DNA of 64,000 nt from Peptococcaceae bacterium BRH_c8a. GTDB lineage: Bacteria > Bacillota > Desulfotomaculia > Desulfotomaculales > Desulfallaceae. The translations under genes and the position numbers were made by a program. How positions within the stretch are numbered: the stretch's first letter is position 1; every line of letters starts with the position of its first letter. The notes beneath the pieces were generated by a model. It was not told where the DNA came from. It did not search any database and was given only the letters and a program-made list of their open reading frames with translations. The stretch is from NCBI GenBank assembly GCA_000961575.1, contig LADP01000031.1, positions 1-64,000 on the forward strand. Direction: 5' to 3'. Below are positions 45,785 to 47,235 of this stretch, piece by piece.

Positions 45785-45897
45785 ACAGTTAATACTACCA
45801 AGACTGCATGTTAATAAAACCGTAAGGAATCCTTAAAATGGGTGTAAGTTTTGTTCTATATGCTTTAAATATAGCAATTGATATTAAGGAGGTTTTT

Positions 45898-46557
45898 ATG
45901 ATGTGCTGCGAAAATACAACCGCTCCGACACCAGCCTTACCCAGACTGGGTTCACCCGCACCATCCTTTGAAGCTGTGACCACCCTCGGAACCCTGCGGC
46001 TGGAAGACTTTAAAGGCAGTTGGTTGATATTGTTCTCTCACCCGGCAGATTTTACTCCGGTTTGCACCACCGAGTTTATCGCCTTTGCCGAAATCCATGA
46101 GGATTTACGCCAACGTAACGTTGAACTGCTGGGCCTGTCCATTGACAGCGTATACTCGCATATTGCCTGGGTTCGCAACATCGAGGAAAAAATGGGAGTC
46201 AAGGTCAATTTCCCGGTAATTGCAGACCTGAACAAGGAAGTAGCTACAGCCTACGGCATGGTGATGCCCGGAGAGAGCAAAACCGAAACTTCCCGTTGTG
46301 TTTTTGTTATCGACCCCAACGGCATTATCCGGGCTATGGTCTACTACCCTCTGACCACCGGCCGCAATATGCAGGAAATAATCCGTTTAATTGACGCACT
46401 GCAGACATCCGACAAACACAGCGTCGCTACCCCGGCTAACTGGAAGCCCGGCGATAAGATAATTGTACCGCCGCCCAACACCCAGGATATGGCCGAAGAC
46501 CGGGTAAAAGAAGGTTTGGAGTGCAATGACTGGTACTTCTGCCGGAAAGAGTTATAG
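45898..46557 (+). CDS. Peroxiredoxin of the AhpC/TSA (Prx6-like) family
   Basis: It reduces hydrogen and organic peroxides. The peroxidatic Cys56 lies in HPADFTPVCTTEF, with the expected Thr and Pro around it. Further cysteines at about 130 (SRCVFVID) and two near the end (GLECNDWYFC) resemble archaeal/clostridial Prx6-type enzymes with C-terminal resolving cysteines. I chose ATG 45898 (219 residues), behind AAGGAGG with five-base spacing. A second ATG follows immediately. The longer frame from 45838 has no ribosome binding site. The next small gene starts nine bases after the stop. Confidence 0.93.
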   Translation: MMCCENTTAPTPALPRLGSPAPSFEAVTTLGTLRLEDFKGSWLILFSHPADFTPVCTTEFIAFAEIHEDLRQRNVELLGLSIDSVYSHIAWVRNIEEKMGVKVNFPVIADLNKEVATAYGMVMPGESKTETSRCVFVIDPNGIIRAMVYYPLTTGRNMQEIIRLIDALQTSDKHSVATPANWKPGDKIIVPPPNTQDMAEDRVKEGLECNDWYFCRKEL

Positions 46558-46566
46558 GAGGTTGCT

Positions 46567-46788
46567 ATGGCCTGCATCAATCCTGATGGAACATTAACCC
46601 GCCCCGGCCGATCTATATTGGAAGCCATGCGTCAGCCCGCTCCCCTGAATCAGGTGTCAACTGGTTCGGGAGTACCCCTGTACCGGGTGCGCAGCGTAAT
46701 CCGGGAACTGCTGGTCGCCGAACTAGCTTATGCAGACGGCGAACTATACCAGGTTACAGAAAAAGGAATTGAAAAACTGGATAGCTAG
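46567..46788 (+). CDS. Small winged-helix-like protein downstream of the peroxiredoxin
   Basis: This 73-residue protein has the pattern of a minimal winged helix: a first helix (GRSILEAMRQPAPLNQVS), a recognition helix (VPLYRVRSVIRELLVAELA) and a wing ending YQVTEKGIEKL. It could regulate the peroxiredoxin gene or be an accessory. The family is not recognised with certainty. It follows the peroxiredoxin stop by nine bases, with its own GGAGG (46557-46561) before the ATG, so the two are one operon. Confidence 0.72.
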   Translation: MACINPDGTLTRPGRSILEAMRQPAPLNQVSTGSGVPLYRVRSVIRELLVAELAYADGELYQVTEKGIEKLDS

Positions 46789-46814
46789 TTTTCACTGAAA
46801 AACTAAGCATAACT

Positions 46815-46994
46815 GGGGTTTGGTGTTAATTGGAGGGTTACGTAGGAGCTTAAATCAAAGAGCGTGAGAGTCCGAGGAAAAGCGCCGGTGCATGTCTGAG
46901 CGCCCGCAGGGCGCGAGTTCTCCGGCGCCCGAGGACGAACGAGCTCGCTCAAGCATAACGGCGAGTAGTAACCCGGAGATTAATACCAAACCCC
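46815..46994 (+). ncRNA. Candidate structured non-coding RNA, about 180 nt
   Basis: This region has no convincing open frame but a nested set of stems. P1 pairs 46815-46830 with 46979-46994 (16 bp). P2 is GGGTTAC 46835-46841 with GTAACCC 46968-46974. P3 is GAGCG 46860-46864 with CGCTC 46946-46950. P4 is GTCC 46870-46873 with GGAC 46933-46936. P5 is GCGCCGG 46882-46888 with CCGGCGC 46922-46928. P6 is the hairpin GCGCCC/GGGCGC 46900-46914. The only non-Watson-Crick pair in P1 is G46825-T46984, which is G-U on the plus strand but C-A on the minus, so the RNA is plus-strand. It could belong to a known large Firmicute RNA class such as raiA, which I could not verify. Confidence 0.75.
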
Positions 46995-47058
46995 TTACCA
47001 AGACTTTTTCAGGAGACACTAGCTAAAGATGGAACAAAATAGAGGGAGGATGGTATAA

Positions 47059-47235
47059 ATGCAAAAGTGGAAATGTGACCAATGCGGCTACACCTTTGAA
47101 GCCCAAGCGGATAAATTACCGGAAAATTGCCCCTCCTGCGGGCAGAAGTGCACATTTTTAAACGTTTCCTGCTATATCCCCGAGTGCGAAGTGCCTAAAG
47201 GACCGGGCTTCGACCCCCGCATCGACGGCAAATAG
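47059..47235 (+). CDS. Rubredoxin-like protein, 58 residues
   Basis: It begins [20 protein letters not shown], with two C-x2-C knuckles (Cys6/Cys9 and CPSCG in the middle), as in rubredoxin-type or desulforedoxin-like iron sites. The C-terminal part [17 protein letters not shown] adds two more cysteines, which ordinary rubredoxins lack. GGGAGGA lies before the ATG at 47059. It follows the structured RNA by 65 bases. It may pass electrons to the peroxiredoxin upstream, by analogy with anaerobe oxidative-stress loci, but that is an inference. Confidence 0.82.

Follow-up and report, generated by a model that had tools for sequence, protein, structure and literature searches.

What kind of RNA lies at positions 46815–46994 of the window, i.e., the 64,000-nt stretch of Peptococcaceae contig analyzed here, and does its location say anything about its role? 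A first-pass annotation had described these 180 nt of the plus strand as a non-coding RNA with nested stems and a 16-bp closing helix, and had suggested a link to oxidative stress, since the stretch is flanked by a peroxiredoxin-like gene (45838–46557) and a small rubredoxin-like gene (47059–47235). Both neighbors had been read correctly, and the structural description held as well: the stretch has a minimum free energy of −86.7 kcal/mol, compared to −60.4 ± 4.4 for 200 dinucleotide shuffles, none of which folded equally well (z −5.96), and it includes no plausible coding frame, its sole ORF being one of 54 aa on the minus strand.

A BLAST search with the 180 bases recovered 13 copies from the same genome that were either full-length or long partials, other copies there that lack the middle, and more copies in related genomes. 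When these copies were aligned together with their flanks, their common ends reached past the 180 bases, and anchoring these ends on TGAAAAA/TTTTTCA delineated a complete mobile element of 232 bp (46788–47019). The functional unit therefore exceeds the 180 nt originally described. This element is bounded by imperfect terminal inverted repeats (TIRs) of the type GTTTCCCCTGAAAAA, namely GTTTTCACTGAAAAACT on the left (46788–46804, plus strand), common to copies in this and related genomes, and the reverse complement of GTGTCTCCTGAAAAAGTC on the right (47002–47019, plus strand), established by the anchored-end comparison. Immediately outside, TAGCTA occurs on both sides (46782–46787 and 47020–47025) as a target-site duplication, and an uninterrupted site with one TAGCTA is found in a genome of the same genus (G001). 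Among 19 copies with readable ends, 9 displayed perfect (6/6) duplications of the form TANNTA, while shuffled pairings of the same ends gave 1.1 ± 1.0 on average and reached 9 in 0 of 10000 trials. With TIRs, a target duplication, dispersed copies, an empty site, and no transposase of its own, the element is, as judged from sequence, a MITE (small non-autonomous DNA transposon).

The comparison with the empty site further indicates that the insertion in the window is recent. It falls exactly at the stop codon of an upstream 73-aa gene (46786–46788), whose TAG stop is completed by the first base of the element; with the flanks joined, the gene would end GATAGCTAA. Since the gene ends at TAG with the element inserted, the 73-aa protein is unchanged. 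Because a same-genus relative carries the empty site with one TAGCTA, the peroxiredoxin and rubredoxin setting is incidental, and other copies are found beside unrelated genes; the suggested link to oxidative stress was therefore not retained.

Architecture and conservation of the RNA

Helices P1 to P7 are all present in the window copy. The closing helix P1 pairs 46815–46831 with 46978–46994 on the plus strand: 46815–46830 and 46979–46994 form the 16 pairs with a single G-U noted at first, to which a 17th pair, U-G, can be added, and its departures from Watson–Crick pairing are G-U only. Across lineages, the sequence of P1 is wholly different and its pairing is kept. Between P1 and P2 lies a GGA/GGA internal loop (46832–46834 and 46975–46977) that several other lineages also have. 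The conserved core, as represented by our covariance model R1, extends from 46835 to 46972 (144.7 bits). In the comparative fold, the GCUU strand of P3 (46848–46851) pairs with 46959–46962; this is the weakest helix, with 74% of cells paired, and all 4 of its pairs show two-sided change. Further inward on the plus strand, P4 joins GAGC (46860–46863) to GCUC (46943–46946), with 98% of cells paired and 45 two-sided changes at one pair, and P5 joins GUCC (46870–46873) to GGAC (46933–46936), with tandem G·A loops on both sides. A conserved A-rich bulge (46878–46881) precedes P6, in which GCGCCGG (46882–46888) pairs with 46922–46928, and P7 (GCGCCC, 46900–46905, with 46909–46914) is framed by conserved UGUYUGAG and GCGAGUU.

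The single-sequence minimum free energy structure includes two local hairpins, GCUU/GAGC and CUCGCU/GGCGAG, whereas comparative data instead support nested pairs of GCUU with RRGC and of GAGC with GCUC. The resulting fold is a rod composed of P4, two base pairs, P5, a GG/CC step, the A-rich bulge, P6, and P7. The helices of this rod are separated by tandem G·A loops, with GA opposite GA at four places in 88, 85, 71, and 88 of 104 copies. Inside P6, the 5′ side has GC in 53 copies, and GA is opposite GA in 28, in which a tandem G·A loop would therefore take the place of two base pairs. The single-stranded motifs UUCAAAGA, GAGGA(A/U)AAGC, UGUYUGAG, and GCGAGUU are almost fixed, and loop motifs rank among the most conserved positions. 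A kink-turn reading of the apical loop was discarded upon inspection by eye, as the pairs do not fit. In four copies (L039, L042, L044, and L046), UAGACUUUCG stands in place of the apical AUGUCUGAG, with the remaining RNA unchanged, as though the loop had been exchanged.

Compensatory changes in the stems, the search for which had been proposed alongside the initial description, were abundant. In a MAFFT alignment that predated any model (A3), both-sided changes occurred at 18 of 29 pairs, and the covariation score was 0.273, compared to 0.132 for shuffled and at most 0.102 for slid controls. In a model-aligned set of 107 copies (A4), 87.8% of cells were paired, two-sided change was detected at 28 of the 29 pairs, and two-sided cells numbered 456, compared to 151 ± 13 in shuffled and no more than 88 in slid controls. 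Counts from A4 lean towards structure, as this alignment was fitted to the model, but A3 agrees with them; identical rows were counted once, and since the copies are related, these cells do not represent independent events. The alignments thus indicate that the RNA fold is kept by compensatory change across many genera.

Two asymmetries concern the strand. In paired columns, G-U cells outnumbered A-C cells about threefold (160 vs 55), which is the pattern to be anticipated from a plus strand that functions as RNA. Between tandem genes, copies were inserted in sense orientation 44 times and antisense 13 times (p 5e-5) across many genomes, and 44 vs 18 times (p 0.001) under the most permissive gene calls; both counts exclude tandem duplicates and use gene calls that are crude ORFs. 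No promoter- or terminator-like site was recognized around the element and, combined with the sense bias between tandem genes, this suggests that the RNA is probably read through in host operon transcripts.

Copies in the window's family whose TIRs have decayed beyond recognition retained 86–98% of 49–52 pairs at 78–88% identity to the window. Among private substitutions in these copies, 14 kept a pair and 6 broke one, with four of the latter coming from a single tandem-array unit, an outer one. Although the numbers are small and the fold may in part be inherited from a master element, these patterns suggest that the RNA stayed under selection once mobility was lost.

Distribution and mobilization of the element

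Using model R1, for which E-values are rough, we obtained 13 matches in the window's genome and detected the RNA in 35 of 113 genomes of the order, with up to 29 copies each (E up to 1e-3 in both cases), and in 32 of 398 genomes sampled across the phylum (E up to 1e-4), where several other families included multiple copies. Most carriers identified through an exact-pattern search were relatives of Desulfotomaculum or Firmicutes MAGs without a name; examples are Desulfallas sp. Bu1-1, a cultured carrier with 5 copies, Ca. Desulfopertinax cowenii, Ca. Syntrophopropionicum, and Peptococcaceae MAGs. The RNA core had no match in plasmids, phages, or viral contigs, and no recurrent neighbor gene or transposase was found beside copies. 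Outside the families of the window's genome (G000) and of G021, the outer ends of copies differ, e.g., in G032, G081, G090, and G342.

Copies also vary in their integrity. Internally deleted ones retain TIRs and closing stem (L047:2976–3060, L048:2976–3060, L045:2976–3059, and L050:3001–3049), and the one in L048 displays a perfect 6-bp duplication, TAAATA; still shorter TIR-only elements of 63–118 bp occur in G001, G004, and G045. At L054:3774–4635 (G001, contig C45), four RNA units are arranged head-to-tail with a period of 227–229 bp and a conserved spacer of ~51 bp, and the TIRs are gone. A second, unrelated repeat (ACGGCAACGGC...GCCGTTGCGGTGAAAGTC) lies in or beside two RNA copies (L045:9150–9420 and L066:2956–3300), and the left flanks of L157, L158, L170, and L190 (G342, G081, and G032) include an extra conserved module, composed of a small hairpin and ATGAAAAT, before the RNA.

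A repeat of another kind in G045, with ends as in the RNA element, pointed to complete insertion sequences in G035. These have the TIR GATTCTGCTGAAAAA and perfect TANNTA duplications (TATCTA and TAGGTA), and encode a 464-aa transposase matching the NCBIfam ISNCY model NF033593 with 499 bits (cut-off 325) and an E-value of 1e-149. A transposase 30% identical to the one from G035 was found in G069, a genome which also carries the RNA, with the TIR GTCGCCCCTGAAAAA and the duplication TAAATA. In G009, a member of the window's family, a relic adjoins GTTTCCCCTGAAAAAC / TAAATAGTTTCCCCTGAAAAAC, the TIR type of the window element, and in G021 and G045, RNA elements with GATTCYGCTGAAAAA ends co-occur with only fragments of this transposase. 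Since its ends and TANNTA duplication match those of ISNCY insertion sequences of related genomes, the element was most likely moved in trans by an ISNCY-type transposase. These insertion sequences share with it the 6-bp TANNTA duplication and a TIR type in which TGAAAAA follows eight bases but, at ~1.5–1.7 kb, encode their transposase and do not include the RNA. The window's genome itself gave no match to the ISNCY transposase described above at E up to 1e-15, and with no helper detected there, this copy of the element may no longer be able to move.

Two other candidates were examined and set aside: transposases of the DDE_Tnp_1 type (PF01609) as helper, given that none of those in the six genomes checked had the same TIR, and, as autonomous element, a pair of TIRs spanning 3.7 kb of G021, which encloses a glycine-betaine-type transporter operon and no transposase.

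Possible function and relation to known systems

No Rfam 15 family reached its gathering score anywhere in the window, and across 46600–47200, a threshold of E up to 10 gave just three matches, all to unrelated families and at chance level. The RNA was likewise without match at gathering score in 16 diverse member loci from other genera, and no description of it was found in a literature search that covered few subscription papers. We conclude that it is an undescribed structured-RNA family absent from Rfam 15. The candidate class put forward in the first-pass annotation, raiA (RF03072), is also a structured non-coding RNA of similar size from Bacillota, and the peroxiredoxin and rubredoxin-like neighbors could be seen as favoring raiA or some other large RNA already known from Firmicutes and linked to oxidative stress. 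However, its sequence and structure do not match the RNA described here, searches at the locus and in the diverse members returned no raiA match at the thresholds above, and the empty site makes the location incidental, leaving this identification with almost no credibility.

Taken together, we consider it likely (probability of about 0.7) that the locus is a small MITE of 232 bp carrying as cargo a conserved structured RNA that is selected in host transcripts. An ISNCY-type transposase acting in trans would insert the element with a 6-bp TANNTA duplication, read-through transcription of the host operon would then carry the RNA, and the RNA would fold inside the operon transcript, where it may be bound by a host protein or processed, so that the operon stays expressed. 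More tentatively, and as the favored one among the functional readings, the RNA might work in cis as an intercistronic module, be it stable, protein-bound, or processed, through which the operon is spared harm from the insertion or even benefits from it; its molecular task could be insulation, stabilization, or protein binding. Somewhat more speculative is the possibility that these elements represent structured RNAs of a new mobile class, which ISNCY-type transposases have spread through anaerobic Bacillota, i.e., a portable intercistronic module that upon sense insertion lets operon transcription and mRNA stability continue.

An alternative that we regard as unlikely is a trans-acting non-coding RNA, freed by processing or transcription and binding a host or transposon protein. 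Such an RNA might titrate or guide the transposase, or form a ribonucleoprotein as omega RNA does, which would aid the element and thereby the spread of its copies. Tandem G·A loops and strongly conserved unpaired motifs, both typical of protein binding, would fit this scenario, as would the many near-identical copies per genome; nevertheless, there is neither a promoter-like site around the element nor a linked partner gene, the RNA is intact in the window's genome despite the lack of a detectable ISNCY transposase there, and a trans-acting RNA with its own promoter would have no need for the operon sense bias.

The structure could also be selected at the DNA level, as a long imperfect hairpin or cruciform required for transposition, be it in a single-stranded intermediate or for transposase docking. 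The element is indeed palindromic throughout, and hairpin-deleted derivatives are frequent, but neither the excess of G-U over A-C, not expected of a cruciform, nor the sense-strand bias between tandem genes would follow from such a role, copies with decayed TIRs retain the fold, and ISNCY insertion sequences with the same ends have no hairpin. Core-deleted copies with a perfect duplication, such as the one in L048, also argue against it, even if their deletion may postdate insertion, and overall we deem a DNA-level role improbable. Less credible still is a neutral MITE, i.e., a chance palindrome with no function besides being copied: MITE transcripts commonly fold into stable stem-loops (PMC10969869), and the cis function considered here is one that we infer, but neutral copies would lose pairs at the same rate as other sites, which is at odds with two-sided change at nearly every pair across many genera and with loop motifs among the most conserved positions.

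The reading we favor, an RNA-carrying MITE selected in host transcripts, has partial parallels in known systems. Prokaryotic MITEs with structured transcripts, such as QMITE2 of Coxiella (PMC10969869), are similarly shorter than 500 bp, with TIRs, target duplication, and no ORF, and share intergenic dispersal, internally deleted and end-less copies, and a stable folded transcript (predicted here); unlike these, the element described here is GC-rich rather than AT-rich, has fixed loop motifs and a sense-strand bias, and includes a covarying RNA core common to many families of the phylum. In IStrons, which combine a group I intron and an insertion sequence (PMC4227781), a structured RNA also travels with a DNA transposon and may make insertions tolerable, but the present element is intergenic rather than intragenic, measures 232 bp in all, and has no internal transposase gene; an IStron or group I intron was excluded here, as no group I intron match to Rfam was found in the window or relatives. 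HEARO and omega RNAs (IscB, TnpB) and RAGATH-18-derived reRNAs (PMC9755519, PMC11061315) are likewise multicopy structured RNAs on mobile elements with stand-alone copies, from which the present element differs by its TIRs and 6-bp duplication. A HEARO or omega RNA was also rejected, with no Rfam match to those families and no recurrent linked IscB or TnpB gene.

Bacterial MITEs are mostly regarded as empty hitchhikers. In the present case, the cargo is an RNA that many families of one phylum have conserved, with pronounced covariation and repeated tandem G·A loops. If the portable-module reading is correct, the RNA would render transposon insertions tolerable without splicing, and hosts would keep it once the transposon ends decay. 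This opens the question of whether the genes next to a transposon insertion can be protected by an RNA that the transposon brings along, and whether hosts then retain this RNA, for which the covariance model, the copies with perfect duplications, the empty site, and a named transposase family provide usable resources.

Finally, the surroundings of individual copies include two features of a different kind. Genes for a sporulation-type sigma factor or spoIIA-like genes lie near copies in more than one genome (L038, L209, and L208), which may be due to chance, and two tandem c-di-GMP-I riboswitches (RF01051) were identified at L072:3865–4125, ~0.8 kb from an RNA copy.
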